A stretch of DNA of 64,000 nucleotides, taken from the NCBI GenBank assembly GCA_002256995.1, contig NCGX01000010.1, forward strand, positions 62,001-126,000, in the 5' to 3' direction. The notes beneath the pieces are model-generated. The model worked only from the letters and a program-made list of their open reading frames with translations. It was not told the DNA's origin and did no database searches. The translations under genes were made by a program, and so were the position numbers. This DNA is from Hydrogenophilales bacterium 16-64-40. GTDB lineage: Bacteria; Pseudomonadota; Gammaproteobacteria; Burkholderiales; Thiobacillaceae. Shown one piece after another: positions 17,101-52,618 of the stretch (its first letter is position 1; the number at the start of each line of letters is the position of its first letter).

Positions 17101-17139
17101 AGTCCAATGCGTCGGCCGGGGACAGCCCTACCTACGGCC

Positions 17140-17168: not shown

Positions 17169-17248
17169 GCAGCCCTATGGACTCATCGATTGACACCCCG
17201 CCACACAAGGCTAGGCTTTGACATATGCCAACTTCAAAGGGGCTACCC

Positions 17249-17690: not shown

Positions 17691-17721
17691 GTTCTAATTG
17701 CTAAACTTAATAGAGTCCATA

Positions 17722-18579
17722 ATGTCGATCAGTGAAAAAATCAACGCTTTAAAAAAAGCAATCAATCGAAAAGCAAGAGGCGAAAAGCACTTCAAAAATA
17801 TCTATTTGAAAACACACGGAAAAGAATTAAACACAAGAGAACCCAAATCATTTTCCGAAAAGCTTTTCTGCCGAATGATTGAAATTAACAGCGCAGGTAA
17901 CAAAACCTACTCCAAACTTGCCGATAAATACAAAGTGCGCGAGCACATATCAAAAACCATTGGCGAAAAATATTTAGTAAAACTATTGTGGCATGGAGCA
18001 AACCCAGACAAAATACCTTTTGAAAGCCTACCGCAGGAATACATAATCAAGGCAAATCACGGATCAGGGATGGTTATACCAGTTCGTGGCGATGTTAGCA
18101 TAAATGAAATTCAAGAAACCATTTCATCATGGCTAAAGACAAACTATTACCTTACTGACCACGAATACCACTACGCCGCGATAAAGCCATTGATTATCAT
18201 CGAAGAATATCTTGATGATAAAAAAGAGCTAGGCCCTTTAAACTATAGCTTTTGGTGCATTAACGGCCAAACAGCCATGATTCAGGTTGACAACAGCAAT
18301 CGCAGCATCAACCCATTTTATGATACAAGCTGGAATAAGCTTCCATTAACCTCTCGCAGAAACCTCCCCGATAGCCAAATAGAAAAACCCAAAAATCTAG
18401 ATGAGATGCTTTCCGTTGCACACACGTTGGCCAAGGATTTTGATTTTGTTCGCGTAGATCTTTATAACATCAATGGAAAAGTATATTTTGGGGAACTGAC
18501 ATTTACGCCTGGATCAGGAAGATTCAAATTTTTACCTGAAGAATGGGACATTGAATTAGGAAGACGCTGGCACTCTTGA
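17722..18579 (+). CDS. TupA-like ATP-grasp protein
   Basis: A 285-residue ATP-grasp-type protein of the TupA-like group found in surface-polysaccharide loci. Visible marks are the N-terminal SEKLFCRMIE, the nucleotide-binding EYIIKANHGSGMVIPV, IIIEEYLDD, YSFWCINGQ, and the C-terminal DFVRVDLYNINGKVYFGELTFTPGSG with the metal-binding acidic residues. Known members add amino acids such as polyglutamate to teichuronic acids; the substrate here is unknown. The gene is strikingly AT-rich against a GC-rich background, which points to transfer. A TTG at 17698 could add 8 residues; neither start has a strong ribosome site. Confidence 0.8.
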   Translation: MSISEKINALKKAINRKARGEKHFKNIYLKTHGKELNTREPKSFSEKLFCRMIEINSAGNKTYSKLADKYKVREHISKTIGEKYLVKLLWHGANPDKIPFESLPQEYIIKANHGSGMVIPVRGDVSINEIQETISSWLKTNYYLTDHEYHYAAIKPLIIIEEYLDDKKELGPLNYSFWCINGQTAMIQVDNSNRSINPFYDTSWNKLPLTSRRNLPDSQIEKPKNLDEMLSVAHTLAKDFDFVRVDLYNINGKVYFGELTFTPGSGRFKFLPEEWDIELGRRWHS

Positions 18580-18735
18580 CGCCGCATGCGCATCCGGATT
18601 GCCAGGCATAAGCGCCTCCGTCACCGTGGCGAATGGATTGTGGTGCATTGCCTGCACCTTGAGTCGGATGACCAAAATAATAAGCCGGACGAATTTCTGA
18701 CAATATCTAATGCATAATTCAGAGAGGATGTAGCT
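18580..18735. other. Gap upstream of the PP-loop gene
   Basis: The first half returns to GC-rich sequence; the second is AT-rich and should hold the PP-loop promoter (GACAATATCTAATGCATAAT around 18700). I see no coding content. Confidence 0.4.
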
Positions 18736-19998
18736 TTGAACAAAACGTTGACAATCGGAAAAATACATAAAGACATCTCCGGGAACAAAGTTGTCTTTTC
18801 TTCGGAAATAAATTTCGGCAACCAAACACAAACACTCTGGTATCGCTTAGATACAGAATACAGCGATTATTTTTGCGAGGATCGGGCCGACGGTCTGGTT
18901 GCAAGTCTGTTGTATTTCTCGTTGATGAACGGCGCAGACATAGTCAGCGAGTTGCCCATTTCCGAAAAGCTGTACTATCAACTGACGCATTATCTAATTC
19001 CGCAATTGTGCAGCTGCAACAAGTCGGTCATTTCTCCAATCAAGATCAAGGCACCGCTTGTTTCAACAGCGTATCGGGAGGCAACCGGGGTTGGCTGCGG
19101 AATATCTTGTGGCGTCGACTCCTTCACGACGCTTTATGAATACACTCAACTCATTCCACTCGATTCATACAAGCTAACCCATCTCACCTACTTTAAGGTT
19201 GGCGCTCATGACGGTCAGATTGGAAGATATGACAGCAACGTGCAGGAAGACCTCTTTCAAACCCAACTATCGCATGCCAAAGCATTCTGCGCTCGATATG
19301 GATACAAGCTTGTCGTGGTGGAATCCAATCTTACGGAAATAATAGATCACATGTTCGGTTTTTATAATTATGATCAGTTTCATTCTTATGTGAGTGCCGG
19401 AACGGTTCTGCAACTGCAAAAACTATTTCGCCGATATTACTATTCGGCAAGCTATGGTCTTGATTCGTTCTTTGTGGATATAAAGAAGGATGCGGCTCAT
19501 TATGAGGCCGTACTGCTCCCCATGCTTTCCACGGAAACAACGAGTTTTTACATTTCCAACCAGGAGATGAGCCGTATTGAAAAAGTTCGCCTAATCTCAG
19601 AGTTCGAGCAAAGTTATGAATGGTTGCTAGTATGCTGGTTACATAAACCAAATTGTGGGAAATGCAGAAAATGCATTCGAACCATGCTGGAGCTTGATTT
19701 CCTTGGCAAGCTGGAACTTTACCGAAGCTGTTTTGATTTAGATGAATATCGAAAAAACAGAGAAAAATATCTTAGACTTATTAATCAAAATAAAGATCGC
19801 GACTATTTTATGAAGGAGCTTTATGAGTACGCAATTACCAATAATATTGCGCTTCCCGCATGTGAGGGTCAAAAAATACACAATGATCCCCTAATCCCAT
19901 GGAATATTGTTAATCAGGTCTTCGATTCTTTACGTAAAAGAGGTGTGCGACAGACGCTGTCCGTAGCCATACAGCGTTTGAGACGGCGTGTGCTGTGA
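18736..19998 (+). CDS. PP-loop ATPase with zinc-finger-like CxxCxxC motif, unknown substrate
   Basis: A 420-residue protein. An SGG-x-DS-type PP-loop is visible as GCGISCGVDSFTTL (ATP pyrophosphatase fold of QueC, asparagine synthetase and WbpG). Near the C-terminus NCGKCRKCIRTML is a cysteine cluster likely to bind zinc, placed like that of QueC. These suggest adenylation of a carboxyl or amide carbon; the substrate is unknown. TTG at 18736 is the start: AGAGAGG lies 8 bases upstream. The gene is AT-rich like the ATP-grasp gene before it, and both were probably imported together. Confidence 0.7.
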   Translation: MNKTLTIGKIHKDISGNKVVFSSEINFGNQTQTLWYRLDTEYSDYFCEDRADGLVASLLYFSLMNGADIVSELPISEKLYYQLTHYLIPQLCSCNKSVISPIKIKAPLVSTAYREATGVGCGISCGVDSFTTLYEYTQLIPLDSYKLTHLTYFKVGAHDGQIGRYDSNVQEDLFQTQLSHAKAFCARYGYKLVVVESNLTEIIDHMFGFYNYDQFHSYVSAGTVLQLQKLFRRYYYSASYGLDSFFVDIKKDAAHYEAVLLPMLSTETTSFYISNQEMSRIEKVRLISEFEQSYEWLLVCWLHKPNCGKCRKCIRTMLELDFLGKLELYRSCFDLDEYRKNREKYLRLINQNKDRDYFMKELYEYAITNNIALPACEGQKIHNDPLIPWNIVNQVFDSLRKRGVRQTLSVAIQRLRRRVL

Positions 19999-20071
19999 TT
20001 TCGGCGCGATGTTACCGACCACACACCTTTATAACCGGATTGAAAGACAAGCTCAGCATGCTGATCGCAAG

Positions 20072-20608: not shown

Positions 20609-20785
20609 ATGAACGCCACCGCCTCAACCAACCCCGCCAGCATCCGCCACGCAACCCAAACGGTTTGCGGCCTACCGCCCGCGCACAAACCCGTGCTTGC
20701 CTGGCGGCGTCATGCCGTCAGTTCCGGCGATTTATCGATACCGGGTCGTAACCGCCGCGCGGCCCGAGCACCCCGCCCAGCATGA
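20609..20785 (+). CDS. Possible small protein or leader ORF of the EPS operon
   Basis: A 58-codon frame beginning MNATASTNPASIRHATQTV. It starts about 20 bases after the predicted transcription start of the sigma-54-like promoter and ends in an ATGA overlap with the flippase gene, as expected of a translated, coupled ORF. I recognise no family, the arginine-rich C-terminal half looks like generic GC-rich sequence, and the ribosome site is weak. It may be a leader peptide, a truncated gene or chance. Confidence 0.3.
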   Translation: MNATASTNPASIRHATQTVCGLPPAHKPVLAWRRHAVSSGDLSIPGRNRRAARAPRPA

Positions 20786-22248
20786 GCCTCGGACAAACCA
20801 TGCGCCATGGCATTGCCTGGATGTTTGTCGGCAATACAGGCCGACAGGTGCTAACGTTTCTCTTCGGCATCGTGCTGGCGCGCCTGCTGGCACCCGAGGA
20901 TTTCGGCATCCTGCTCACCATCCAAGTGTTCACCGGCCTGGCCGGCTTCGTCGCGGGCGGCGGCATGGGCCAGGCGCTGGTGCGCGCAAAGGAAGCGACA
21001 AAGCAGGATTACGACATCGTTTTCACCCTGCAGCTTGGCATCGGCTGCCTGATCTACGCTGGGTTCTTCTTTGCCGCGCCCTGGTTTGCCAAGTGGTACG
21101 ACACCCCGCTGTATGCCGACCTGCTGCGAGTCTCAGCGCTGTCCTTCATCTTCCGTCCACTGGTCAACTTGCCAGCCAGCATGCTGTACCGGAACATGCG
21201 CTACAAGGCGCAAACCATCGTCGGCATCACATCGCTACTGGTTTCCAGCGGCACCAGCATCCTCATGGCCTGGCTGGGCTACGGCGTCTGGAGCCTGATA
21301 TGGGGTGGTATTGCCGGTGCAGCCTTCAGCGCGGCACTGATGATCCCACTGACCCGCTGGCGCCCCGGGTTCTCGCTGGAATTCCGACGCGGGCGCGACA
21401 TCGCGCGCTATGGCATCCTGGTGTCAGCCAACGATATCGTCGGCTACTTGCACAATCAGGTCAGCATTTTCATCCTGTCGCGCACCCTCGGCCCGACCAG
21501 CGTTGGCCTTTTCAATAAAGGGAAAAGCCTGGCCACAATGCCCCACAGCTTCATCACGGGATCGGTTTACCACGTCCTGTTTCGCGCCATGGCCGCCGAA
21601 CAGGACAACCTCGACAAATGCCGCTATCTCTTCTTTCGGAGCATCGCGCTGGTTGCTGTCTATGCCACGCCTTTCTATATCGGCCTGCTGTGGCTGTCCG
21701 AACCGTTCATTCGAGGCATTTATGGCGAAAAATGGGTTGCTGCCGCGGGCCCCTTGATGATTCTGGCATTCGCTTGGCCGTTCTGGCTGATGGACAACCT
21801 ATCCGGCGCAGTCCTCGCCGCACAAAACTGGCTCGGTCGCGAGTTGCCTGTCCAGATCGCGACCTTGATCATCACAGCTCTTGGCATCACCATTGCCCTA
21901 CCTTATGGCATCGAAGGTGTGGCCTGGGCCATCGTCGGGGTTGCGGTTTATTCAGCGTTTCACCTGTACTGGCTGGCCACGCGTTGCCTGCGGGCAAAGT
22001 TGTCTGGATTTTTCAAAGCGGTCGCACCCGCTGCAGTGCTCAACGGCTTGCTCGCGCTAGTGCTATTCAGCGCCGACTCGACCCTGCCCGCATCAGTCAC
22101 GGAAAATGATTTCGCGTACATGGCATTGATGGGCGCAACAGGCGGCTTAATTTATATAGTGAGTTTTCTTTATTTGCCCTTCCGCTCGCTGGGCGCCGAG
22201 CGCGAACGCTGGAAAATAAAGCTCAAACTTGCCAAGGCCGCCGCATGA
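20782..22248 (+). CDS. Wzx-type polysaccharide flippase (lipopolysaccharide biosynthesis protein, MOP family)
   Basis: A 488-residue integral membrane protein with about 12-14 hydrophobic segments and the family N-terminus GIAWMFVGNTGRQVLTFLFG followed by LARLLAPEDFGILLTIQVF. It resembles the WzxC group that moves lipid-linked repeat units across the inner membrane. First clearly recognisable gene of the plus-strand EPS operon; it overlaps the deacetylase gene by 4 bp. Confidence 0.93.
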   Translation: MSLGQTMRHGIAWMFVGNTGRQVLTFLFGIVLARLLAPEDFGILLTIQVFTGLAGFVAGGGMGQALVRAKEATKQDYDIVFTLQLGIGCLIYAGFFFAAPWFAKWYDTPLYADLLRVSALSFIFRPLVNLPASMLYRNMRYKAQTIVGITSLLVSSGTSILMAWLGYGVWSLIWGGIAGAAFSAALMIPLTRWRPGFSLEFRRGRDIARYGILVSANDIVGYLHNQVSIFILSRTLGPTSVGLFNKGKSLATMPHSFITGSVYHVLFRAMAAEQDNLDKCRYLFFRSIALVAVYATPFYIGLLWLSEPFIRGIYGEKWVAAAGPLMILAFAWPFWLMDNLSGAVLAAQNWLGRELPVQIATLIITALGITIALPYGIEGVAWAIVGVAVYSAFHLYWLATRCLRAKLSGFFKAVAPAAVLNGLLALVLFSADSTLPASVTENDFAYMALMGATGGLIYIVSFLYLPFRSLGAERERWKIKLKLAKAAA

Positions 22249-25746: not shown

Positions 25747-26961
25747 ATGATCGACCCCCATCACGCACCCAGCGCCTCACCCAGAAAAATCTTGGTCGTT
25801 GCACCGTTCATGCACCGGCTCGGCCACTTTTCGGTCTTTCCGCTGGAGATGGCCACGGGATTCTCCTTGAATGGTGCAAGCGTTGCCCTGCTGCATCCCT
25901 TTCCTGCCAAGGCGACCTCGCACAAGGCCACCACCATCCCGAGCCTCTGTCTCGCCGATCGTGCAGACACCTTCACTGGACTGATGAAGTGGCTGTGGCT
26001 GAGATGCCGCGACAGCCCCATCCTGCTCTGCCTGGCATGGCTGACCCTTCATGTTCGCCCCGGCACTTACGATCTTGTCTATTGGTCCGACTTCAAATCC
26101 GACAATCAGCAGAGCATGTGGCCGCTCGGTCTAGCATCGCTCCTGGGCCTTTACCGGCATCGAACTGCCTTCACCGAACACCACAACTTCAGCTGGAACA
26201 GGCACCGCTGGCAGCGGTTTTTTCGTCTCGACCATATACGTCTTCGACGCATTGAAATGTTCGCCCACTCAAAGAAACTGCTGGACTGGATCAGGCTCAA
26301 CATGAACTGGCCGACAGTCGGCCACTATGTCGCACACGGGCTTTGGCCCACCCCCGTCAGCAACGAAGAGCGCACAATCGCCAGGCGCAATCTGGGCATT
26401 GCCGAAGATGCCCGGGTGTTGCTGGTCTTTGGACTGCAGGCCATCCGCCGCAAGGAAATCGACACGCTGGCGGCGGCCTTGGAGAGCCTTACGATCGCCC
26501 GCCCGCTGGTCGTGGTTTTCGCCGGCATGCGCACACGCGACGAAGCCCACCCGTTCGACGCGCAAGTCTTACGCGGCAAGCCGCACCTCACCGTGCATCG
26601 CCACGAAAGCTTTATCGCCGAAGACGAAGTCAAAGCACATTTTGCCGCCGCCGATGCCGTGTGGGCCTATTACGGTTCATTCATCGGAGCATCCGGCGTA
26701 CTCATGCAGGCGATTGCCTACGGCAGGTTGTCGATCTGTGCCAACGCCGGGGAAAGCGGCGATCTCGCACGGCAGTTCGGCATCGGTTTGCTGCCACCCG
26801 CTGACGACGTGGCCGGTGTGGCGCAGGTCCTGCAGCGTTTCATAACCCTGTCCGCCGACGAACAGGCCGGGGTCGAGGCCGCCGCCTGCAAGGCGGCGTC
26901 TGAACTCGCCTGGCCGAATGCCACGCGCAAGATACTCGACTACACCTTTCCGCACACCTGA
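25747..26961 (+). CDS. Glycosyltransferase, GT-B fold (family 4-like)
   Basis: A 404-residue protein with the N-terminal Rossmann start KILVVAPFMHRLGHFSVFPL, YHRTAFTEHHNFSW-like sequence in the middle, and a C-terminal nucleotide-sugar domain: ARVLLVFGLQAIRRKEIDTL and AADAVWAYYGSFIGASGVLMQAIAYGR. The glycine-rich and E-x7-E motifs of family 4 are degenerate, so the family call is weaker than for the other GT-B genes here. It ends 14 bp before the sulfotransferase start. Confidence 0.75.
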   Translation: MIDPHHAPSASPRKILVVAPFMHRLGHFSVFPLEMATGFSLNGASVALLHPFPAKATSHKATTIPSLCLADRADTFTGLMKWLWLRCRDSPILLCLAWLTLHVRPGTYDLVYWSDFKSDNQQSMWPLGLASLLGLYRHRTAFTEHHNFSWNRHRWQRFFRLDHIRLRRIEMFAHSKKLLDWIRLNMNWPTVGHYVAHGLWPTPVSNEERTIARRNLGIAEDARVLLVFGLQAIRRKEIDTLAAALESLTIARPLVVVFAGMRTRDEAHPFDAQVLRGKPHLTVHRHESFIAEDEVKAHFAAADAVWAYYGSFIGASGVLMQAIAYGRLSICANAGESGDLARQFGIGLLPPADDVAGVAQVLQRFITLSADEQAGVEAAACKAASELAWPNATRKILDYTFPHT

Positions 26962-26974
26962 AGATCAGCCCACC

Positions 26975-27976
26975 ATGACCGCACCACTTGCCACGCCCGC
27001 CCCGGTCTTCATCGTTGGCGCCCCGCGCTCCGGCACGACCATGCTGCAATACATCCTGGATGATCTGCCCGGCCTGTGCATGCCCACCGGCGAATCGCAC
27101 TTCCTGATTCCTTTGTATCGGAGCCAAGCGGCGTTCGATAATTTGGAAACGCGCACGGGCATGCGGCGCCTGCTCGAAACCATTCACGGTTTCAACCCCA
27201 TCTTCCTCCACGGCGACCTACACGGCATGCGGTTCGACGTGGACGCGTTGACCGAGACCTTTCTCGCCGAGCAACGCACGACGGTGCGGGACGTCGTGGC
27301 GGGTCTGTTCGAAAAGAACGCCGCCGGACTGGGCAAGCAACGCTGGGGCGACAAGACGCCCTACTACGCGCTGCATCTGGACAAGCTCGCCGACTGGTGG
27401 CCGGACGCAAAATTCATCCACCTGATCCGCGACGGACGCGACGTCGCCCTGTCGCTGTTTGGCCGCCGGCACGATTTCAGCGCCTACAACATCTACTACG
27501 CCGCCCAGTATTGGCAGAAATACGTCGACGTGTGCCGCGACCAGGGCCATTTTCTTGGCGCCGACCGCTATCTCGAACTCCGCTACGAGGACGTGCTGGA
27601 CGACCAGACCCGCGCCATGCAGACGGTGTGCGATTTCATCGGCGAACCCTATCGCCCGGGCGCCGCCACCGCCGCCGCCTCAGGCGAATCCGCGCAGCGC
27701 CTGCGCACCGCCGACAGGACAAATCAGGGTAAATGGCGCAGTCGGCTCAGCGCCTGGCAACTACGAGTGTTCGAGAGCGAAGCGGGGCGAACGCTCGACG
27801 CGGCTGGCTATCCGCTCACCACAACACCGCGCCGCCTGCTCCTTCCGATTCGCGTGCTCTACCGTTTGCACAACGACCTGTCAGTCCGTTACAACCGGAT
27901 GCTCGGTCGCAACCGCAGCAAACTCCGTTTTACGGTTCGCCCCGCCCCCCAACCCAGCAACATGACCAAGCTATGA
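26975..27976 (+). CDS. Sulfotransferase family protein
   Basis: A 333-residue PAPS-dependent sulfotransferase. The 5'-phosphosulfate loop is VFIVGAPRSGTTMLQYIL at the N-terminus and the 3'-phosphate-binding segment is FIHLIRDGRDVALSLFGRR; RWGDKTPYY is the usual third mark. It probably sulfates a hydroxyl of the EPS repeat unit. ATG 26975 fits the family start; the longer open frame upstream overlaps the glycosyltransferase. It ends in an ATGA overlap with the next gene. Confidence 0.9.
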   Translation: MTAPLATPAPVFIVGAPRSGTTMLQYILDDLPGLCMPTGESHFLIPLYRSQAAFDNLETRTGMRRLLETIHGFNPIFLHGDLHGMRFDVDALTETFLAEQRTTVRDVVAGLFEKNAAGLGKQRWGDKTPYYALHLDKLADWWPDAKFIHLIRDGRDVALSLFGRRHDFSAYNIYYAAQYWQKYVDVCRDQGHFLGADRYLELRYEDVLDDQTRAMQTVCDFIGEPYRPGAATAAASGESAQRLRTADRTNQGKWRSRLSAWQLRVFESEAGRTLDAAGYPLTTTPRRLLLPIRVLYRLHNDLSVRYNRMLGRNRSKLRFTVRPAPQPSNMTKL

Positions 27977-28902
27977 ACGCGATGACCCCGCCCGCAGTCA
28001 GCTTCACCGTCAACGTCTGCAATTCGGATGCACCTTATCTGGAGCAGACTGTGCGCCACATGATGCGCCAACTGAACTTCCCCTTCGCCGAGCGAATCGC
28101 CACCTACGATCCGGGCCGCCAGGTTGGTAAATATGCCGAGCGCATCCAGGGGTCACAAACCGAAGTCGAGCGCATTCTGCAAAAGTTGCTGGATGACAAA
28201 GTGATCGACCGGGTGGATGTGGTGCCGTGGACCGAAGCGGAACAGCACCGCATCCTGATGAAGTATTTCGGTGATGAAAGCATCGACCTCAAGGACTTCT
28301 CAGGTGCCCCCATCTATCAGTATCTGTATGCGATGGATGCCTGCAGCGGCGATTACATTTTCCACGTTGACTCCGACATGCTATTTTACCGGCAGGGCGC
28401 GCGATCCTGGATTTACGAGGGACTCGATCTGCTGCAAAGCCAAAGCCATGTCGTCGTCGCCACACCACAGGGCGGGCCGCCACAGGCGCGCAACTGGCTG
28501 GAAAAGCTGACCGGCGTTTCGTTCGAGCCGAAGCCGAAAGCCGACTGGCATCACGCCAGTTTCACCTCCACTCGCTATTTTCTGATGGATGTTTCACGTT
28601 TTCACGCCTGCCTGCCGCTGCAGCAGGCCAAGCCCGGCGATCCCCTGGAAAACAGCTTGTCGCATACCTTCACCCAAAAGGGCTACCAGCGCTGGTCGAT
28701 GAACGGCTATACCCATTGGGCGATCCACCCCTGGCGCCACGATGAAAACTATGTGCGCTATCTGGACGACTTGATCTGGGCGGTGGAAAACGGCATCTAT
28801 CCGTTCAAGCGCACCGGCTTCAAGTGGGACATGCGCACCGAAGGCGAACATATCAATGAATGGCTGGCAGTGCTGCGCGAGCATGGTCGCGCAGTGGATT
28901 AA
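27973..28902 (+). CDS. Probable glycosyltransferase of GT-A fold
   Basis: A 309-residue protein opening with VSFTVNVCNSDAPYLEQTVR, with a DxD-type motif in GDYIFHVDSDMLFYR and YLYAMDACSGD just before it. The remainder (SFTSTRYFLMDVSRFHACLP, NGYTHWAIHPWRHDENYVRY) is unlike common family 2 enzymes. The ATG at 27973 overlaps the sulfotransferase stop by 4 bp, so the upstream extension of the open frame is not coding. The precise family is not known to me. Confidence 0.75.
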   Translation: MNAMTPPAVSFTVNVCNSDAPYLEQTVRHMMRQLNFPFAERIATYDPGRQVGKYAERIQGSQTEVERILQKLLDDKVIDRVDVVPWTEAEQHRILMKYFGDESIDLKDFSGAPIYQYLYAMDACSGDYIFHVDSDMLFYRQGARSWIYEGLDLLQSQSHVVVATPQGGPPQARNWLEKLTGVSFEPKPKADWHHASFTSTRYFLMDVSRFHACLPLQQAKPGDPLENSLSHTFTQKGYQRWSMNGYTHWAIHPWRHDENYVRYLDDLIWAVENGIYPFKRTGFKWDMRTEGEHINEWLAVLREHGRAVD

Positions 28903-28911
28903 GTTGGCACA

Positions 28912-31900
28912 ATGACCGATCCCGCCCGCCTAGCGGTTGTCATTTGCACCTATAACCGCAGCGCATCTCTTATCCAGACGCTGGCCTCGATATATGGCTG
29001 CGGTTACGCCGGCCAAGAGCAGGTCGACGTCGTGGTGGTGGCGAATAACTGCAGCGATGACACGCTTGCCCGGCTGGCCGACTTCAAGGCTGCCCACCCG
29101 CAGGACACCCTGAGACTCTCGTGGATTGAGGAACCCCAGGCCGGCAAGTCATACGCACTGAATGCCGCCATTGCGCACTGCCCGCAGGATGTGCTGTGCT
29201 TCATCGATGACGACCAAACTGTCGAGGATGGCTTTCTCGCCCATCTGCTTGAAGGCATGGACGCCTACCCGGACGACGCCATCTACTGCGGGCGCATCTG
29301 GCCCGCATGGGATGGTAGCGAACCCGCATGGGTCCACACACAGGGCGAATATGCTGTCCCGATCCGGCCGTTTCCGGAATTCGATCTCGGCAGAGAGACC
29401 GTTTCGATCACCCCCCATGACCGCTATCCCAGCGGCGGCAACATCGTGGTGCGGCGGGCAGTCTTCGATGCAGCCGGCCTGTTTTCAGTGGAGATGGGGC
29501 CCACCGGCCACAATCTCGCGGGTGGCGAAGACCACGATTTTCTGAGACGGGCTACCGACAAGGGATTTGCTATCCGCTATCTGCCCGGCGTACGGCAGCT
29601 TCATGCCATTGATGCCGAGCGAACGAGCACCCCCTACACCCTGCGCAAAAGTTTCCTGCGCTCGCGCGCGAATTATCTGATCAAACGTCAAGGCCAACGC
29701 CCCCAGCCGTATATGTTCCGCAAGATTTTGGAGCATCTGGGCAGCGCGGCATTCACGCTCGACGCCAAGCGTCGGTTTTTTTATCTGGTGCGGCTGTCGG
29801 CCAGCCTGGGCGAACTCGCTGGTGCGGTGGATGCATATCGGGCGCCCAGCGCGGCCAGACTTGCCCTCCCCCCGGACCGCGGCATGCTGGGCGTTGAAGC
29901 CCTGGCACTGCTCACCGGCGCCAGCGGCTTCATCGCCTGGATTGTCGCCGGCGACGCGCGCTGGGGCGGCATCCTGCCGGCAATAGGCGTCGCAGGCGTC
30001 GGGGCAACAGCGTTGCTCGCCAAATCGCTGATCGACTTTTCCCAGACCGGGCCGCGCATGCGCGAGGAAGTGCTCACGTATTACCGGCGCTACACCCTGT
30101 TTGCACTGGCACGCCTGACCGCCTGGGCGTTCGCGCTGATGCTGTTCACCGGCGGCGCGGGGGTGCTGCTGTACTTCATGCTCAACACGGTGATTGGTGC
30201 GCTGTGGTCGACGGGCCTGGCCTTCATTGCCGCTATCCTGGGCGTGCTGGCTGCGTTCTCGCTGCAATTCATCCGCAAGCTGCGCTTCAACCCCGGCCTG
30301 CTGGTGGCATCTATGCACTACCGCATGAGCCGGCTGTACAGACTCTGGCAGTGGATGACCCCGGCCTTCATCACGGCCCTGCAATGGGGCGCCATGGGCC
30401 TGGTCGGACTGCTGCTCATGGCCGCCAGCTGGCAGTTGTCGAAGGAGGGGCGTATCGGCGACCTGATGGCGCTGTGGGCGGCCACACTGTTTTTTGCGGG
30501 GACGATCACCTGGGCAGGCTGGCAGCCGCAGGCACGCGCGCCGCGCAAACGGCCGACGCGCGCAGCCGATGCGCCGCCCAACATCCTGATGATCGGCTCC
30601 GACACGCTGCGTGCCGACCGCCTGGGCGCGCTGGGCTACCACCGCGCACTGACGCCGAACATCGATGCGCTGGCCGCAAACGGTGCCCTGTTTGCCAACT
30701 GCTACGTGCCATGCGCGCGTACCGCCCCCAGCCTGATCTCGATGCTGACCGGCACCTGGCCGCACACGCATGGCATTCGCGACAACTTTGTTCCCGATGA
30801 CGATACGCGCCTGAAAGTCGATGCCCTGCCCACGCTGCTGAAACAGGGGGGCTACCGCACCGCTGCGCTGTCGGACTGGTGCGGTAGCGACATGGGCAAG
30901 TTTTCCTTCGGTTTTGATTACACCGACCTGCCGGAAGATCAATGGAACCTGAAGTACCTGATTCGCCAGGGTCCCAAGGACCTGCGCCTGTACCTGTCCC
31001 TGTTCACCCATAACCGGCTGGGACGGCTGATGCTGCCCGAGCTGTACTATCTGGGCGGGGTACCACTGACGCAGCCGATGGGCAAGCGTGCGCGGCGGCT
31101 GGTGTCGCGCCTGGCAGAAAGCCCGCAGCCGTTTTTTCTCAACGTGTTCTATTCCACCACGCACCCGCCGTTTGCATCGGAATGGCCGTGGTACACGCGC
31201 TTTGCCGACCCGGGCTATGCGGGCGAATCCAAGTTCGCCATGGCGAGGCTCACCGATCCGTTCGATATCATCCGCCGCCAGGGCGCGCCCAAGAAAGAAT
31301 TCGACCTCGATCAGATCATCGATCTGTACGACGGCTGCGTGGCGGAGTTCGACGATGAAGTGGGCAAAATGCTGGCGCATCTTGAAACCTGCGGCCTGGC
31401 TGGGAATACCATCGTTGTCGTCTATTCAGATCACGGCATGGAGTTTTTCGAGCACGACACCTGGGGCCAGGGCAACTCAGCCATCGGCGAAGCCAGCCCG
31501 CGCATTCCGCTGGTGATCCGCGATCCGCGCCTGGCGCCTAAGGGAAAAATAGACCAGGTGGTGCGTTCGATCGACCTGGTGCCCACCCTGCTGGAACTCG
31601 CCGGCCAGCCATCTGCCCCGGCAATGGACGGAGTATCGCTTGCGGGTGGCCTAAAAGCAGACAGCGCCTGCCCGGAACTGGACGCATTCAACGAAACAGG
31701 CATCTGGATCACCGACATTCCCGGCCTGCCCGACGATCACCTGCGCTACCCGGATCTGTTGGAGCTCATGGAAGTACCGGATCGGGCCAGTGGCACGATG
31801 GCAATCAAGCCGGAATACTGCGATGCTATCCATGCAGCGAAGGACAGGATGATCCGACGTGGGAAATGGAAACTGGTGTATCAGCCGCTAACGGATGGAC

Positions 31901-32079
31901 ACACTCTGCTTTTGTACGACCTTGAAACAGACCCATCGTGTCAGCAAGATGTATCCGCACAGCACATTGAAGTGCGTACTGAGTTATGGAAACAGTTGCA
32001 GAGGCTCATGAGGGAAGCGCACACACAGGTCAAAGCCCTTCCGAAAAGTAACCTGCGACTGCTCACCAGTCACACCTGA
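28912..32079 (+). CDS. Three-part fusion: family 2 glycosyltransferase, membrane segment, sulfatase/alkaline-phosphatase-fold domain
   Basis: A 1055-residue protein. Residues 1-310 are a family 2 glycosyltransferase (LAVVICTYNRSASLIQTL; DxD in VLCFIDDDQTVED; GGEDHDFLRRA). Residues ~325-540 contain about seven hydrophobic segments. Residues ~550-1040 form an alkaline-phosphatase-superfamily domain: D564 in MIGSDTLRADR, a nucleophile region RTAPSLISMLTG, and the metal pair D840-H841 in YSDHGMEF. The formylglycine Cys of true sulfatases is replaced by Thr604 and the following Arg by Leu, as in phosphoethanolamine/phosphoglycerol transferases of this fold. It may therefore transfer or hydrolyse a phospho group rather than remove sulfate. 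Last gene of the plus-strand run. Confidence 0.85.
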   Translation: MTDPARLAVVICTYNRSASLIQTLASIYGCGYAGQEQVDVVVVANNCSDDTLARLADFKAAHPQDTLRLSWIEEPQAGKSYALNAAIAHCPQDVLCFIDDDQTVEDGFLAHLLEGMDAYPDDAIYCGRIWPAWDGSEPAWVHTQGEYAVPIRPFPEFDLGRETVSITPHDRYPSGGNIVVRRAVFDAAGLFSVEMGPTGHNLAGGEDHDFLRRATDKGFAIRYLPGVRQLHAIDAERTSTPYTLRKSFLRSRANYLIKRQGQRPQPYMFRKILEHLGSAAFTLDAKRRFFYLVRLSASLGELAGAVDAYRAPSAARLALPPDRGMLGVEALALLTGASGFIAWIVAGDARWGGILPAIGVAGVGATALLAKSLIDFSQTGPRMREEVLTYYRRYTLFALARLTAWAFALMLFTGGAGVLLYFMLNTVIGALWSTGLAFIAAILGVLAAFSLQFIRKLRFNPGLLVASMHYRMSRLYRLWQWMTPAFITALQWGAMGLVGLLLMAASWQLSKEGRIGDLMALWAATLFFAGTITWAGWQPQARAPRKRPTRAADAPPNILMIGSDTLRADRLGALGYHRALTPNIDALAANGALFANCYVPCARTAPSLISMLTGTWPHTHGIRDNFVPDDDTRLKVDALPTLLKQGGYRTAALSDWCGSDMGKFSFGFDYTDLPEDQWNLKYLIRQGPKDLRLYLSLFTHNRLGRLMLPELYYLGGVPLTQPMGKRARRLVSRLAESPQPFFLNVFYSTTHPPFASEWPWYTRFADPGYAGESKFAMARLTDPFDIIRRQGAPKKEFDLDQIIDLYDGCVAEFDDEVGKMLAHLETCGLAGNTIVVVYSDHGMEFFEHDTWGQGNSAIGEASPRIPLVIRDPRLAPKGKIDQVVRSIDLVPTLLELAGQPSAPAMDGVSLAGGLKADSACPELDAFNETGIWITDIPGLPDDHLRYPDLLELMEVPDRASGTMAIKPEYCDAIHAAKDRMIRRGKWKLVYQPLTDGHTLLLYDLETDPSCQQDVSAQHIEVRTELWKQLQRLMREAHTQVKALPKSNLRLLTSHT

Positions 32080-32114: not shown

Positions 32115-33014
32115 TTACATCCAGTCCAGATCGCGAATAGTGCGAGCATAGTGACCACCCGTAAACCGGCATGTGCCAATAAAATGAATAAATCGAGTTT
32201 TACCCGGCTGAGCTTTTACGCAGTCAGCATACTCTGGATGGGGAAGCACGATCGCACTTGGCTGATTCGCCACGACTAAATTAGACATCACCTGCTCACT
32301 CCCCCATTCCAGCCAACGTTTTCCAATCAGCGCTTGCATCTGGCTGGAAATCGCACACAGTAAATCAATTTTGTCCGTGCCTGCGGGGAAGCCTGAAAAA
32401 CCCGAACAGCCACGCACATATTTCAGCGTTTCCGCCTCATGCAGGTTGGCGAAATTTGCTTCTGCAAGTAATTGCACATGGGGTCGTTCACCAACCAGGT
32501 GGCTCTTAGCAGCGTCCGATCGATCAAGTGCCGGCTCGATTCGTTGATGATCCCAGGTTCCGATAGAAAATGCGGTTTCGCTTTTAGCTGCGGCCGCGAC
32601 TTCCGGGATAGAGGCCAAGGTAAGCGTGTCGGCATCCAGCTGAATAACATAGCGCGCCTCCGAAAAGCGCGCAACTGCAATTAACCTCTCCCATGTCCCA
32701 CCATTGGGGAGTCCCGGTACACGGAAACTGGCCAGCGCATGAATGCGAATGCCTGGAATATGTCTGGATAGCAGATTGCGGTCGTCTGCAGTCAAGCTTC
32801 CGTCGTCGACAACGTGTACTTCCGCAGGCGGAATATGTCTCGCGAATGACTTGGACGCAGCCAAATACATTAAAACGTCCTTGTGTTGCAATTGCGACAC
32901 AAGAACGGGCGCCGACGGTACGTCAACCATCATTAATGGCGGGGTATCCAGGACGCCACGAATTCCTCGGTTAAAACACCATCTCTGCAGTTTATTTTTG
33001 AGGCTATAGAACAT
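32115..33014 (-). CDS. Probable glycosyltransferase (GT-A fold)
   Basis: A 299-residue protein. VLVSQLQHKDVLMYLAASKS and EVHVVDDGSLTADDRNLL fit a Rossmann-like nucleotide-binding half, and YVIQLDADTLTLASIPEV carries a DxD motif preceded by a hydrophobic strand. FIHFIGTCRFTGGHYARTIRD closes the protein. The family is not one of the common GT2/GT4 groups; GT8-like is a guess. It converges with the fusion gene and follows the TPR gene by 31 bp. Confidence 0.7.
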   Translation of the reverse strand: MFYSLKNKLQRWCFNRGIRGVLDTPPLMMVDVPSAPVLVSQLQHKDVLMYLAASKSFARHIPPAEVHVVDDGSLTADDRNLLSRHIPGIRIHALASFRVPGLPNGGTWERLIAVARFSEARYVIQLDADTLTLASIPEVAAAAKSETAFSIGTWDHQRIEPALDRSDAAKSHLVGERPHVQLLAEANFANLHEAETLKYVRGCSGFSGFPAGTDKIDLLCAISSQMQALIGKRWLEWGSEQVMSNLVVANQPSAIVLPHPEYADCVKAQPGKTRFIHFIGTCRFTGGHYARTIRDLDWM

Positions 33015-37735: not shown

Positions 37736-38749
37736 TCAATACCCCATCCGCTTAGCCACGTCCGCCACCTTCGGCAGCACGCGTTCGATCTTGTCCCGGT
37801 TGCGGCCGTCTTTCCATTTGTCCAGGCGGATTTCGGAGAAGGCGTTGTAGGGGATGTCGAGCACGTCGGCGCAGTGCGCCTGCAGGCGGGCGTCGAATGC
37901 CAGGCTACAGCCTTCGAACACCTGGCGGAAGGTGGCCACCGGGTCGCGCAGGAAATCCTCATAGAACACATCAACCCATTGCCCGGCGGGCACGTCGGCC
38001 TTGGCGTCGAGGATGGCCTGGTTGATGGCGGTGTACTGGAAGGCGGCGACGTCTTCGACCGGCGCATTGACATACTCGCGCCAGCCGTCGGCGAGGAAGA
38101 AGCACCACTGGGTCAGGGTGCCGTTTTCCACCGCCACCGTCGCCGGCAGGTCGTTCGACCAGGTGGCGAACTCGTCGGGTTTTCGCCAGCCCTCGATCAG
38201 CGAATTGAGGTTGTCGCCGGGGCTGCGCTTGATGAAGACGAACACGGCATCGGGAAACAGCGCCCGCAGATAGGGTACGCACAGGCCGTTCTGGTTGTTC
38301 TTGTCGACCCAGCGATGCTGCCCGGTCCAACTGTAGAAATAACGGCTGACGGTATCGCGATCCGCCGGGCTGGCGTCGCCGGCATCCAGCGCATGGGTGT
38401 CCCAGTGCTTGTCGGCCGGCGGGTGCAGGTCGGTCCAGTAATCGTGGGTTTCGCGCTGCAGGCTGCCGATCTCGCGCGACTCGGACAGGGTCTTGTAGAC
38501 CAGGGTGGTGCCGGCGCGCGAGCAGCCGACCACGATGATCGGGCGCTGCGCGGGCGCGCGCGAAATCGACCAGCGTGCGCTGCGCAGGCCGCGCTGGATG
38601 CGCCGCGCGTGATGGGCCAGTGTTTTGCTAACTTTAATCAGGAATTCATTCAACGGCTTGGGCTTTCTGACATTAGGGCAAAGGATTTCAGCATCGATCA
38701 CACCGCTGGATTGCTTCGTTGCACTCGCAATGGCCGGAAACAAATCCAT
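37736..38749 (-). CDS. Sulfotransferase family protein
   Basis: A 337-residue sulfotransferase. The phosphosulfate loop is IIVVGCSRAGTTLVYKTLSE (near residue 71) and the 3'-phosphate segment is VFVFIKRSPGDNLNSLIEGW. The ATG at 38749 is supported by AGGAA 5 bases upstream. The first ~20 residues (AIASATKQSSGV) are encoded by a dispersed repeat, so the gene seems to have gained its start from repeat DNA; a TTG at 38653 would give a more usual N-terminus. Flanked on both sides by non-coding repeats, it stands alone. Confidence 0.85.
   Translation of the reverse strand: MDLFPAIASATKQSSGVIDAEILCPNVRKPKPLNEFLIKVSKTLAHHARRIQRGLRSARWSISRAPAQRPIIVVGCSRAGTTLVYKTLSESREIGSLQRETHDYWTDLHPPADKHWDTHALDAGDASPADRDTVSRYFYSWTGQHRWVDKNNQNGLCVPYLRALFPDAVFVFIKRSPGDNLNSLIEGWRKPDEFATWSNDLPATVAVENGTLTQWCFFLADGWREYVNAPVEDVAAFQYTAINQAILDAKADVPAGQWVDVFYEDFLRDPVATFRQVFEGCSLAFDARLQAHCADVLDIPYNAFSEIRLDKWKDGRNRDKIERVLPKVADVAKRMGY
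38705..38731. repeat. Dispersed GGATTGC...GCAATGG repeat inside coding DNA
   Basis: CTGGATTGCTTCGTTGCACT CGCAATGG: a hairpin repeat common in proteobacterial genomes, here within the first codons of the sulfotransferase gene. Confidence 0.55.
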
Positions 38750-42301: not shown

Positions 42302-43627
42302 CTATATGCGCCGTCCAGCCCCTTCATGGCCGAACTTGCTGGACGGATGCGGCGGCGGTTTTTTCGCTGGGGCCATCGTGGGCGTGGCCCGGGTCTTGTC
42401 GAGCACACCCGAGAATTTCGCCGCGAGAATCAAAACAATCATCAGGTGATAAGTCAGGTCGAAATAGGCCAGCCCCAGGAAGAGCCCCCCTGCCCCGTAT
42501 CCGACCAGACTGACCTGGATCATCGCGGCCAGGTCGGCCGCCCATTTTCGCTTGAGGTCATTCTTGCACTCACGAATAACCTGATTAGCACGCAGCCAGA
42601 CTAATACCGCCAGCAGAATGAACATGCCGAACCCGATGAAGCCGTGCTCGCCCATCACCTCGAAATAGATGCTGTGCACGTCGTGCACCCTGAAGGGCTC
42701 GGGGGCGTATTGACGGAAGGTCGGCGCCCTAAACATTTCGAACCCGCCGCCGGTGACCCGGGCCTTTGCTACATTGAATGCGGTATGCCAGGCGTTGATG
42801 CGCCCCAGTGCCGAGTCGTCTTCTTCATAGGTCTTGATCGTATCCATGCGGTCGTACCATTCCTGGGGCATCACCGATGCCATGATCGCGACCGCGATTG
42901 CCATGTAGATAGTCATGACGAGCTTGTGGCGGCTCTTGAACCACAGGAAAAAGCCCATGGCCGCCATCGCCAGCAAGCCGCCGCGCGACTGGCTGCCGAT
43001 GGCGGCGATTCCAGACAGCACCATGGCTGACGCCAGCCCCCAACGCACCCATTGCTGGCTAGCCTGCAAGTGCAGATAGCGGATCAGCGGAACGAGCATG
43101 GCCAGTACCAGCGCCATTTCATTGTTACCGCCGAAGAAGGTGCCGGCCGGACCCTGCACCCTGAACTGGCCGCCGTGCATGATGGTGAAGATGCCGCCCT
43201 TGACCCCGTAGTAACCCAATGACAAGGCAATGACCCAGATCATCCAGTTCAGATGCTGGCGTTCCTTGATGATCATGGCGGTGAGAAAAACCATGAGCTG
43301 GATTCTCCAGACCTTGCTCCACTGGTCCCACGCAAGCTCGGAATAAAACGCAAAATACGTGGTGAGGAGCATCCATCCGATGAACATCAGCAGCAATATC
43401 GTCTCTCGCGTCCAGATCATTCCCTTTTTCTCTTTCGAGAACATGAAGGCGGTGATGGTGACGATGGCAGTAATGAAAGCAAATGGCATGTCGTAGGCGA
43501 AGCCCCAGGCCTGCCGATGCGGGTTCATGTAGGCCAGCCAGCACCACAGCATGATGCCGACCCAGGGGCGCTTGAATATGAAAGGCAAGACGCCAAACAC
43601 AATTGCGGTGACCAGTATGTCTCTCAT
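42302..43627 (-). CDS. Putative O-glycosylation ligase, exosortase A system-associated (Wzy/WaaL-like)
   Basis: A 441-residue membrane protein with about 10-12 hydrophobic segments. The N-terminus (MRDILVTAIVFGVLPFIFKR PWVG) and the large periplasmic loop with HGGQFRVQGPAGTFFGGNNEMAL and VHSIYFEVMGEHGFIGFGMF match the family TIGR03097 as I remember it. Such enzymes polymerise EPS units or ligate glycan to protein. It is specific to genomes with XrtA. A 119-bp gap with a hairpin repeat separates it from the PaaK-like gene. Confidence 0.92.
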   Translation of the reverse strand: MRDILVTAIVFGVLPFIFKRPWVGIMLWCWLAYMNPHRQAWGFAYDMPFAFITAIVTITAFMFSKEKKGMIWTRETILLLMFIGWMLLTTYFAFYSELAWDQWSKVWRIQLMVFLTAMIIKERQHLNWMIWVIALSLGYYGVKGGIFTIMHGGQFRVQGPAGTFFGGNNEMALVLAMLVPLIRYLHLQASQQWVRWGLASAMVLSGIAAIGSQSRGGLLAMAAMGFFLWFKSRHKLVMTIYMAIAVAIMASVMPQEWYDRMDTIKTYEEDDSALGRINAWHTAFNVAKARVTGGGFEMFRAPTFRQYAPEPFRVHDVHSIYFEVMGEHGFIGFGMFILLAVLVWLRANQVIRECKNDLKRKWAADLAAMIQVSLVGYGAGGLFLGLAYFDLTYHLMIVLILAAKFSGVLDKTRATPTMAPAKKPPPHPSSKFGHEGAGRRI

Positions 43628-49934: not shown

Positions 49935-51059
49935 TCAATGTTTTCTACCCAATGTCAGTTCGTAGACCAGGCTGTAGGCCTCGGCCATGACCGGAATGCT
50001 GAAGCGCTGCACGGCGTGCTGCCGCGCATGCGCCCCCTGTTCGGCAATGCGCGCCGGTGCATCCAGATACGCGAGCAAGGCCTGTGCCATGCCGCCCACA
50101 TCGCCCGGCTGGACCAGCATGCCGTTGACGCCCTCTTCCACCAGTTCGAGATTGCCGCCCACCGCGGTGGCGATCACCGGCAGGCCGCTCGCCAGCGCTT
50201 CCAGAATGGTATTGGAAATCCCCTCGTTTTTGGACGGCAGCACGAACACGTCGAGCACCTGCATGATGTCCGCGATGTCGTCGCGCGCGCCCGGCAGCCA
50301 GGCCAGGTGCGCCAGGCCGGCGGCCTGCAGCAGGTCGAGGCAGGTCTTGCGGGCCGGGCCCTCGCCGACGATGACCAGGCGCGCGCGCGCGGCACGTTCG
50401 GGCTGCTGCCGCACCAGCTGGATGAAGGCCCGCGTGAGCGTGGGGTAATCTTTGACCGCGACCATGCGCCCCACCGAGCCGAACACGATGCTGTCGGGAT
50501 GGGCGAACGCTGGCCGCGCACCTTCGCGCGGATGGAATTTTTCGCTGTCGACGCCGTTGTAGATATGGTGCAACTTGCGCGGCGGCACGCGGATGGCCAG
50601 GCGCAGCCATGTCTCAAGGTCCTGGCTCACGGCAATGTAGTTCGACACAAAGGGCTTGGCGGCGCGGCGCAACACGTTGTATTTCCAGTTCTGGCCATAC
50701 AGATCGAACACGTCGCGCCCATGCTCGCCGTGCACGGTGGCGCGGATGCCGGCGGCCGCAGCGACGAACTGCGCCTCCAGCGCCGCCAGGTTGCGGGTGT
50801 GCACCAGATCGGGCTTGAGTTGGCGCAGCAGCTTCCACAAGCGCAGCGTCCAGCCGAAGCCATGGCCGGGGGCGCGGTGCAGCGCATGGAATTCGACCGG
50901 CTGCGCGGTGATTCGCTGGCGAAAATCGCCGTAGTCGGTGAGCGCGACCACGGTGTGGCGGTAACGGTCCGGCGGCAGGGTGTTGAACAGGTTGACCATG
51001 CCGTTTTCCATGCCACCGGTATCGAAGCGATGGACGATATGCACGATGTGTGCAGTCAC
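49935..51059 (-). CDS. Family 4 sugar transferase, PEP-CTERM/EpsH1-associated (Stp2-like)
   Basis: A 374-residue GT-B enzyme. IVHIVHRFDTGGMENGMVNL is diagnostic of the exosortase-locus group I recall as TIGR03088; VHGEHGRDVFDLYG, YNGVDSEKFHPRE, VFGSVGRMVAVKDYPTL and KNEGISNTILEALASGLPVI follow. The start is GTG at 51059, overlapping the exosortase stop by 4 bp (GTGA). The longer frame upstream runs through xrtA and is not coding. Confidence 0.93.
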   Translation of the reverse strand: MTAHIVHIVHRFDTGGMENGMVNLFNTLPPDRYRHTVVALTDYGDFRQRITAQPVEFHALHRAPGHGFGWTLRLWKLLRQLKPDLVHTRNLAALEAQFVAAAAGIRATVHGEHGRDVFDLYGQNWKYNVLRRAAKPFVSNYIAVSQDLETWLRLAIRVPPRKLHHIYNGVDSEKFHPREGARPAFAHPDSIVFGSVGRMVAVKDYPTLTRAFIQLVRQQPERAARARLVIVGEGPARKTCLDLLQAAGLAHLAWLPGARDDIADIMQVLDVFVLPSKNEGISNTILEALASGLPVIATAVGGNLELVEEGVNGMLVQPGDVGGMAQALLAYLDAPARIAEQGAHARQHAVQRFSIPVMAEAYSLVYELTLGRKH

Positions 51060-52618
51060 CGCCCGTCGACCTGATCGAGCGCGCGCCCGATTGCCGGCGC
51101 CATGTCGGCGGCAAAGCGCGCCAGGGTGGCGACCGCGGTCGCGTGTTCCGCCGCGTCGTACGGGGTGGCGATCAGCACCGACAGGCCGTCGTCTCGCTGC
51201 AACCGCGCCCGGTCGAGGGCCAGGTCCAGCTTGGCGGCATGGTCGTTGACGGTGGGGTGCTGGTCGATCAGGTTCCACTGCCATACCAGCAGACGCTGGC
51301 CATCGCTGCCGCGCAGCTTGGCCTGCCGCACCTGGCGCGATTGGCCGCCGATTTCCACCGTGGCGCGGGATTCGCCGACGTTCGACCAGGCCGGGTCCTT
51401 CTGCCGGATCATGAAATTCTGGGAGTTGATGAGTTCGGCATCCTGCCGCTGGGTGACGTAGTAATTGAGCTCCAGCAATACGTTGCGCCCGGCCTGGGCG
51501 TAGGACTGGCGCAGCTGGCGGTCGGCGCCGACCCAGTGCGGCATCCAACTGGTGAAGGTCGCGGTCGGCTGCCAGCCGCCCTGCGACTCGACTTGCAATT
51601 CCGGCATGGCCGGCAGCGGGCGCGCGCTGAGCCAGCTGGCGTAAGCCGGCCACAGGCCTGCAACCAGCAGGACCGCGATCGCCACCGGCAGGCGCGGCCG
51701 CGCGGGCCGGTCTGCCGGCACCGCAACGGGCGATGCGACAGCAGTTTGTGACTGGCCGGGCTCGGGCTGGTCGTCCTCCCGCCAGAATCCGCCGATCCAG
51801 AACAGTAGCAGCATGACCAGACCGAAGAACACCCAGCCGTAAATGTAGTGGTCAACGCCGAGCGCCAGCTGCATGTCGGACAGGTGGGCGATCATCACGA
51901 TCATGTAGGCGCGCCCGCTGTTGGCGAAGATCGGTACGATGATGGCGGCGATCGAGAACAGCAGCCGCCGTTTCCACGAGCGGTAGGTGAGATAGGCGTA
52001 GAGCACGCCGAGCGTGACCGAGGCGATCAGATAGCGCAGCCCGGAACAGCCTTCGACCACCGACCAGTCGCCGCTGGGAATGCTGAAGAACATGCCTTCT
52101 CGGTACACCGGAATACCCGTGAATTGCAGCATCGCCACAGTGAAATCGGCCGTCACCCCCATCAGCGGCTGGATCAGGAATTCGCCCACCGGCACCGCGA
52201 AAAACAGGAACATCAGGGGAAAGAATGCGGCCCACACGAAGCGCCAGCCGAGCAGCGTCCACACTGCGGCAATCAGCATGGCAATGAACGCGTATTGCGC
52301 GACGACGTTGACGCTGCCGGCGTCGGCCAGCAGCCAGCCGGCGCCGGCAGCCGCCAGCAGGATCAGTCCGCGCAGGTCGGGCCGCGGCTGCACCTGTGCC
52401 AGTTCATGGCGCTGGCGCCAGAGCAGCCAGGCGCTGATGGGGAAAATGAGATAGCCGTGGGTGAAGGTTTCCGAGCGCTCCCATATTTCGACCATCGAAT
52501 AGAACGTCGGCCAGAACACGCCAGTCAGGATCAGCAGGACGCCGAAGGTCAGCGCACCCGGCAGCAGCCAGTTGCTGCGTGGGGGAACGGCGGGAAGGGC
52601 ATCGGGCAGTGCGCTCAT
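51056..52618 (-). CDS. xrtA: Exosortase A with C-terminal EpsI domain (fusion)
   Basis: A 520-residue protein. Residues ~20-285 form the exosortase with about eight membrane segments; its transpeptidase residues are Cys191 (EGCSGLRYL), Arg236 (NSGRAYMIV) and His257 (DHYIYGWVFF). After a linker and one more membrane segment (~305-325), residues ~330-515 are a periplasmic EpsI-like domain. In many genomes the two are separate genes. XrtA cleaves PEP-CTERM proteins and hands them on to the EPS-bearing surface. It overlaps genes on both sides by 4 bp. Confidence 0.95.
   Translation of the reverse strand: MSALPDALPAVPPRSNWLLPGALTFGVLLILTGVFWPTFYSMVEIWERSETFTHGYLIFPISAWLLWRQRHELAQVQPRPDLRGLILLAAAGAGWLLADAGSVNVVAQYAFIAMLIAAVWTLLGWRFVWAAFFPLMFLFFAVPVGEFLIQPLMGVTADFTVAMLQFTGIPVYREGMFFSIPSGDWSVVEGCSGLRYLIASVTLGVLYAYLTYRSWKRRLLFSIAAIIVPIFANSGRAYMIVMIAHLSDMQLALGVDHYIYGWVFFGLVMLLLFWIGGFWREDDQPEPGQSQTAVASPVAVPADRPARPRLPVAIAVLLVAGLWPAYASWLSARPLPAMPELQVESQGGWQPTATFTSWMPHWVGADRQLRQSYAQAGRNVLLELNYYVTQRQDAELINSQNFMIRQKDPAWSNVGESRATVEIGGQSRQVRQAKLRGSDGQRLLVWQWNLIDQHPTVNDHAAKLDLALDRARLQRDDGLSVLIATPYDAAEHATAVATLARFAADMAPAIGRALDQVDGR

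Follow-up and report, generated by a model that had tools for sequence, protein, structure and literature searches.

Two proteins of the alkaline-phosphatase/sulfatase fold, Agl30 (VNG1056C) and Agl31 (VNG1057C), have been reported to sulfate the N-glycan of Halobacterium salinarum, on the basis of gene deletion and of expression in Haloferax volcanii (PMC11980604). Agl30 is membrane-bound and Agl31 is cytosolic, and the authors argue for action on the lipid-linked glycan. The subject of the present analysis is a bacterial gene from Hydrogenophilales bacterium 16-64-40, found in a window of 64,000 nucleotides (the whole stretch of DNA that was analysed; contig NCGX01000010.1, positions 62,001 to 126,000). 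The host is a sulfur-oxidising bacterium, and its genome comprises 3.10 Mb in 68 contigs. The gene encodes a family 2 glycosyltransferase (GT2), a membrane region and a sulfatase-fold domain in a single chain, with Thr in the place of the sulfatase nucleophile. The fused protein represents a real, conserved and rare two-enzyme family. The fusion, its conservation, the loss of the formylglycine catalytic positions, the exchange of the GT2 half and the gene's neighbourhood can be read directly from the sequence. The parts of the gene, in positions of the window, are as follows.

28912..32079, + strand: fused gene, GT2 followed by six predicted membrane helices and a Thr-type sulfatase-fold domain; ATG start, 1055 amino acids
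28912..29862, + strand: exchangeable GT2 module (about residues 1-317); D99-D101 and E206-D207 invariant in 43/43 full-length chains
29863..29871, + strand: exchange junction, located by eye at about codon 318, immediately ahead of LPPDRG
29890..30525, + strand: membrane region with six predicted helices (residues 327-538), from hydropathy
30577..32016, + strand: sulfatase-fold domain (residues 556-1035), from PF00884 and sequence and profile matches
30721..30723, + strand: Thr604 codon, where formylglycine sulfatases have Cys/Ser; Thr in every one of the 81 members

The window protein resembles Agl30 and Agl31 in its fold and in being encoded inside a glycan assembly cluster, as judged from the gene content of the window. 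Furthermore, 6HHM is both the nearest solved structure of Agl31, according to PMC11980604, and the top Protein Data Bank (PDB) sequence match of the window domain. The haloarchaeal proteins differ in being archaeal, in having at most one predicted helix and in having no glycosyltransferase half mentioned in the available part of the paper.

Family S1 sulfatases share with the window domain the PF00884 match over most of the domain, as well as D564, H751 and D840-H841. However, the Cys/Ser nucleophile is replaced by Thr, the Arg by Leu, one Lys by Asp, a second Lys by Gln and the residue at the second metal position by Thr, and the window protein, unlike these sulfatases, is polytopic and fused to a GT2. 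The phosphoethanolamine and phosphoglycerol transferases and their kin (EptA, LtaS, OpgE, OpgB and BcsG) likewise have a membrane domain before the catalytic domain and a Thr nucleophile, but the window domain has little sequence similarity to EptA, OpgE, OpgB or BcsG. A closer relative is LBBP_RS17975, an 817-residue 'sulfatase-like hydrolase/transferase' from a Leptospira borgpetersenii plasmid (L146:5059-7512), which is 29% identical to the window protein over 491 aligned positions. It has Thr in the nucleophile place and, before the domain, seven helices, one of them just under the strong cut-off. It differs from the window protein in lacking a GT2 half, and no glycan genes are present in the stretch seen. 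The initial annotation of this DNA knew of no described system with such an architecture; no GT2-sulfatase fusion was recognised in the titles and abstracts of papers listed from an open-access library.

The fused family and its active site

The single 1055-residue chain proposed in the initial annotation is borne out by the open reading frame at 28912-32079 on the + strand, in which PF00535 (GT2) matches residues 9-186 (E 8.9e-19; 68.5 bits against a curated cut-off of 23.3) and PF00884 (sulfatase) matches residues 556-898 (E 4.3e-47; 161 bits, cut-off 25). The residues named there, T604, L608, D564, D840 and H841, are all present when the frame is read. Forty-three full-length chains of the window's broad type were chosen from 59 usable loci and the window. 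The acidic residues D99, D100 and D101, of the GT2 metal motif, and E206 and D207, the catalytic ED, are invariant in all 43.

When genome contigs were searched with the C-terminal core, 141 stretches were confirmed; the best 80 of the 141 were kept and, together with the window, constitute the 81 members discussed below. These 80 stretches come from Thiobacillus, Sulfuricella, Nitrotoga, Sulfuriferula, Thauera, Aromatoleum, Marichromatium and other genera. The window's broad GT2 kind is fused in frame in 60 of them and a different GT2 in 5; the C-terminal part stands alone in 10, and in the last 5 the sequence ends before a GT2 would be visible. Even where it is unfused, the C-terminal part lies directly after a GT2-like gene (27-38% identity) at 9 of the 10 loci. 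In four stretches (L110, L113, L114 and L120) the unfused order starts with a GT2 of the broad type seen in the window (41-42%) and continues with a sulfotransferase, another GT2 and a separate C-terminal gene; this arrangement is likely either ancestral to the fusion or derived from it by splitting.

Within the genus of the window, most likely Thiobacillus, 30 of 35 genomes have strong C-terminal matches (E 1e-200 or better), mostly fused. Among these 30 carriers the C-terminal part is unfused in two (G001, G028), follows a different N-terminal half in four (G007, G021, G032, G035) and belongs to a gene broken over contigs in three (G022, G025, G031). Only 1 of 24 other genomes of the order has a match of this strength. 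In a draw of 300 genomes from the order, 14 match at E 1e-50, among them that of the window and a second member of its genus, and 397 other genomes drawn from the phylum gave no match at E 1e-45. No match was found in viral contigs searched with the single protein, and a plasmid search gave one distant relative (E 1e-40). Chance or an assembly artefact as the origin of the fusion was considered and rejected, because the fusion recurs in many assemblies.

The active site is strictly conserved. Residues D564, T565, R567, T604, D655, H751, D840, H841, E847, H848, W851 and Q853 are unchanged in 81/81 members, and residue 608, four after the nucleophile and in the place of the sulfatase Arg, is Leu in 80 and Met in one. 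Three other sulfatase residues are replaced, Lys by D655, His by C657 and Lys by Q853. According to PMC5066984, the nucleophile is solely Cys or Ser among 4058 sulfatase sequences, and 99% have Arg at the second place. The formylglycine catalytic pattern [CS]-x-[PA]-x-R, taken like the other patterns from that paper, matches none of the 81 members, and neither does the updated PS00149 pattern (G-K..., with the Lys/His signature), the place of its Lys being D655 throughout; each of the two matches all three E. coli sulfatases of the control panel. Calcium pattern 1, [DE]-[DQ], is absent from all 81 (T565 in each); E. coli YidJ and YdeN miss it too. The full calcium pattern 2, D-[NHQ]-G, is found in 0/81 and is also missed by YidJ, with D840-H841 kept in 81/81. 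A formylglycine sulfatase is thus ruled out by the Thr in the nucleophile place together with the absence of the formylglycine patterns, as the initial annotation had implied from the Thr, and to judge by these positions the C-terminal domain is not such an enzyme.

The same annotation had likened the Thr to that of phosphoethanolamine and phosphoglycerol transferases, the class of EptA and LtaS. The Thr nucleophile and the D/E...D-H metal residues, which are traits of that class, are indeed present in every member (T604, D564, D840 and H841). Sequence kinship, however, was looked for and not found. Profile comparison gave probabilities of 99.5% for YidJ, 99.0% for YdeN and 98.4% for AslA, all sulfatases of E. 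coli, against 26% for EptA, 24% for OpgE, 6% for OpgB, 3% for EptB and 1% for BcsG; LapC reached 92%, over 84 columns only. The PDB matches shown, with 6HHM first, are sulfatases and phosphonate hydrolases. At the sequence level the domain lies closer to sulfatases than it does to the EptA/LtaS class.

A kinship tree of 36 sulfatase-fold proteins, which is unrooted, computed by a quick method and has long branches, contains a branch of support 98 that separates 17 sulfatase-like rows from the family, the Leptospira protein and 11 others. The Leptospira protein is the nearest row outside the family and joins it with support 99. The grouping of the rows, made before the tree was seen, followed their motifs and gene neighbourhood, and one of them, hal_Hmontanus934 (Cys and Arg), was placed with the Thr rows for its DSLR and absent GKWH. 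Of the 17 sulfatase-like rows, sixteen combine Cys or Ser with Arg and Marinov2759 has neither; the strict pattern fits 10.

Six haloarchaeal plasmid stretches, hand-picked out of 374 records with a match (60 of them listed), provided 14 sulfatase-fold proteins that were read. Nine of these lie beside glycosyltransferase or agl genes, and eight of the nine have Thr and one has Ser, none with the Arg. The remaining five, whose neighbours are sugar-degradation or other genes, all combine Cys with Arg, and the strict pattern fits four of them. A seventh haloarchaeal stretch, from Halorussus, has Cys with Arg and no adjoining glycan genes. Each of the haloarchaeal glycan clusters L148, L149, L150 and L152 carries between one and three sulfatase-fold genes of the Thr or Ser type, and epimerases are present in L148 and L149. 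On a Paenibacillus plasmid (L157:1088-3075), a Thr-type 'sulfatase' lies directly 3' of cysC, the gene of adenylyl-sulfate kinase, a step in the supply of 3'-phosphoadenosine 5'-phosphosulfate (PAPS); this adjacency would suit sulfate transfer.

Exchange of the glycosyltransferase half

Sequence comparison indicates that the GT2 half has been exchanged repeatedly between relatives, independently of the remainder of the protein. The identities of the two parts correlate poorly (r 0.37 over the 903 pairs of the 43 full-length chains). Sixty pairs have a GT2 identity of 50% or less with a core identity of at least 75%, and 137 pairs have at least 60% in the GT2 and 60% or less in the core. In the GT2 tree, the 11 rows of the window's GT2 kind form a single clade (support 100). 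Nine changes of this label are needed on the tree of residues 556-1035, at least seven of them forced by starred branches, and an approximately unbiased (AU) test against these rows forming one clade gave a p of 3.9e-6. Shuffling the labels on the latter tree gave a mean of 10.0 changes, and 123 of 500 shuffles were as low as 9. The exchange point is visible in the comparison of the window with locus L042, where identity rises from 33% at residues 301-320 to 96% at residues 321-345; by eye, the aligned rows place it at about residue 317. Repeated exchange of this half in one reading frame is a clear case of polysaccharide diversification by intragenic recombination. As the GT2 half is exchanged between strains, the added sugar or the acceptor would change and the modifying half would stay constant.

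A neighbouring gene appears to take part in the exchange.

27733..28902, + strand: upstream gene; no Pfam family matches it at E 0.1 or below; its relatives have about 308 amino acids, and the true start is probably near 27967

This gene is present in 12 of the 13 loci with the window's GT2 kind and in none of 68 other stretches, some of which have little upstream sequence. The thirteenth locus, L070, has 1.5 kb of upstream sequence and retains a tail remnant only, in two short pieces (L070:1428-1539). The gene and the GT2 module seem to move together, because the gene is found only beside the window's GT2 kind. One stretch of its product, HVDSDMLF, resembles a glycosyltransferase metal motif.

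Membrane side and the group transferred

The topology was predicted by a TopPred-like hydropathy scan combined with the positive-inside charge bias. Where about seven membrane segments had been annotated initially, hydropathy gives six in the window protein, at residues 327-347, 351-371, 404-424, 431-451, 487-507 and 518-538. Six strong helices, with both termini inside, are predicted in all 43 full-length chains; at a lower cut-off 40 of the chains keep six helices and three gain a weak seventh. The loops of the window protein contain 1, 0 and 2 Lys/Arg residues on the predicted outer side compared to 3, 5, 6 and 5 on the inner side. The same prediction gives five helices and an outside domain for EptA, EptB, OpgE and LapC, in contrast to the six helices and inside domain of the window family. 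Among the controls, the C terminus was called outside for five of six E. coli members of the superfamily (EptA, EptB, OpgE, BcsG and LapC) and inside for eight of nine transporters. Because of the six helices and the positive-inside bias, both the GT2 and the sulfatase-fold domain are likely to face the cytoplasm.

This prediction bears on an idea of the initial annotation, that a sugar is added inside and the glycan is decorated outside. The outside position of the second domain is disfavoured by the prediction for the 43 chains, but five chains with the other GT2 would fit it. The annotation had also set against its own idea a topology with both domains on one side and no membrane crossing; the two domains are indeed predicted to share a side, but the chain does cross the membrane.

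We tentatively prefer, a little short of an even chance, to regard the protein as a two-enzyme membrane protein of exopolysaccharide assembly at the cytoplasmic face, which attaches a sugar to a lipid-linked glycan that it also modifies, with sulfate placed ahead of a phospho group. As the family and the locus suggest, the GT2 module would work on the inner side of the cytoplasmic membrane, where its acceptor would be an undecaprenyl-linked glycan. The sulfatase-fold domain, with its Thr nucleophile and one kept metal site, would modify the same glycan on the same, predicted, face before export. We infer the membrane side, the transferase activity, the donor and the acceptor; it is plausible that the C-terminal domain acts on a glycan as a transferase. 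The group moved would most likely be sulfate and less likely a phospho group, because of the analogy with Agl30 and Agl31 and of the many sulfotransferase genes at such loci, described in the next section.

Several observations weigh against this interpretation. One superfamily control, OpgB, was wrongly called with its C terminus inside. Of the five chains with the other GT2, four are predicted to have seven helices and one to have eight, one of these weak; for all five, parity would put the domain outside, unless a long hydrophobic stretch in the GT2 part is a hairpin. Some unfused cores are ambiguous, with five or six helices. The analogy with Agl30 and Agl31 draws on fold and gene setting, and the text of PMC11980604 does not contain the words catalytic, active site, cysteine or threonine. 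In the kinship tree a branch of support 90 places the family and the Leptospira protein beside the sulfatases, apart from the haloarchaeal glycan-cluster proteins, so that the tree ties the family no closer to the haloarchaeal proteins than to sulfatases. The absence of the sulfate-binding residues of sulfatases suits phosphate or another group equally. Finally, there are two ordinary sulfotransferases at the locus, and sulfate may therefore not need the sulfatase-fold domain.

An alternative retains the GT2 inside and makes the C-terminal domain a periplasmic phosphoethanolamine or phosphoglycerol transferase like EptA or LtaS, which would move the head group of a membrane phospholipid onto the exported glycan. 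The Thr nucleophile with a D...DH metal site is that of this class, EptA and LtaS are also membrane-anchored, and the seven or eight helices of the chains with the other GT2, like the seven found in 3 of the 43 chains at the lower cut-off, would bring the domain to the required side. Nevertheless, the six helices and inside C terminus of all 43 window-type chains, the charge distribution in the window loops and a profile similarity that goes to sulfatases and not to EptA, EptB, OpgE, OpgB or BcsG make this alternative, still a serious contender, unlikely. It is quite unlikely, too, that the domain is a hydrolase (a phosphodiesterase, a phosphatase or an unusual sulfatase) editing or trimming the glycan, its lipid carrier or a nucleotide. 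T604 rules out formylglycine chemistry, and the fusion and linkage with a biosynthetic GT2, as well as the polytopic anchoring, favour a transferase, even though the fold is mostly hydrolytic, the family adjoins sulfatases in the kinship tree, and the phosphodiesterase profile PF01663, whose family uses Thr, also matches the fused protein (E 6.4e-16). The invariance of the nucleophile position and metal ligands in 81/81 members renders improbable a non-catalytic domain that binds or senses the glycan and holds it near the GT2, as has been argued for YejM/LapC; such a role would agree with the loss of many sulfatase catalytic positions and with the partial profile similarity to LapC.

The preferred reading, of two enzymes acting on the cytoplasmic face, can be extended to a proposal that is doubtful when taken as a whole. 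The protein would be a cytoplasmic machine whose front module changes between lineages in the manner of a serotype cassette, with the adjacent gene travelling along and the junction staying fixed, and whose constant part sulfates or phosphorylates the sugar just added. A sulfatase fold would then serve sulfate transfer in glycan assembly in archaea as well as bacteria, by means of Thr and not formylglycine. 'Sulfatase-like hydrolase/transferase' proteins are common in databases and are mostly unexplained. Should this domain prove to transfer sulfate, such proteins would have to be re-annotated as adding groups and no longer as removing them. The family provides a testable Thr-type sulfatase fold, tied to a glycosyltransferase by fusion, in named strains of Thiobacillus, Thauera and Aromatoleum.

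Neighbourhood of the fused gene

The genes around the fused gene form a + strand cluster, which also contains a deacetylase, GT2s and a methyltransferase, and a - strand part carrying the XrtA set. The following genes were identified.

20782..22248, + strand: polysaccharide flippase-like gene of the + strand cluster (PF13440)
26918..27976, + strand: predicted sulfotransferase (PF13469, E 1.5e-34), upstream of the fused gene and in the same direction
37736..38749, - strand: second predicted sulfotransferase of the locus (PF13469, E 2e-21)
42302..43627, - strand: O-antigen-ligase/polymerase-like gene (PF04932, PF19358)
51056..52618, - strand: exosortase A with an EpsI domain, which marks an XrtA exopolysaccharide locus

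Thiobacillus denitrificans is listed among XrtA organisms in PMC1569441, the available part of which does not contain the word 'sulfatase'; in the available part of PMC8205485 sulfatase appears in a reference title only.

Sulfotransferases were counted in all six frames of 69 stretches, the 12 of the 81 with less than 4 kb before the core being left out. At 35 of the 69 loci a sulfotransferase gene is encoded on the same strand no more than 6 kb upstream, and at 62 one occurs anywhere in the stretch. PF13469 is also found in 38 of 60 relatives, the window's own genome included. Of the 14 carriers in the order, 12 were examined, and 11 of these have PF13469, 10 of them above the cut-off; it is present in the other two, G000 and G049, as well. 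A locus rich in sulfotransferases fits a sulfated polymer, without indicating the role of the sulfatase-fold domain.

Two further features of the window were noted. A 299-residue gene at 32115-33014 on the - strand has only a weak GT2 match (E 0.0055) and occurs in five of the stretches that were clustered, including the window. Positions 14001-20000 have a G+C content of 0.43-0.55, compared to about 0.65 before them, and are possibly a young insertion; a gene for a TupA-like ATP-grasp protein, at 17698-18579, is located within this stretch.

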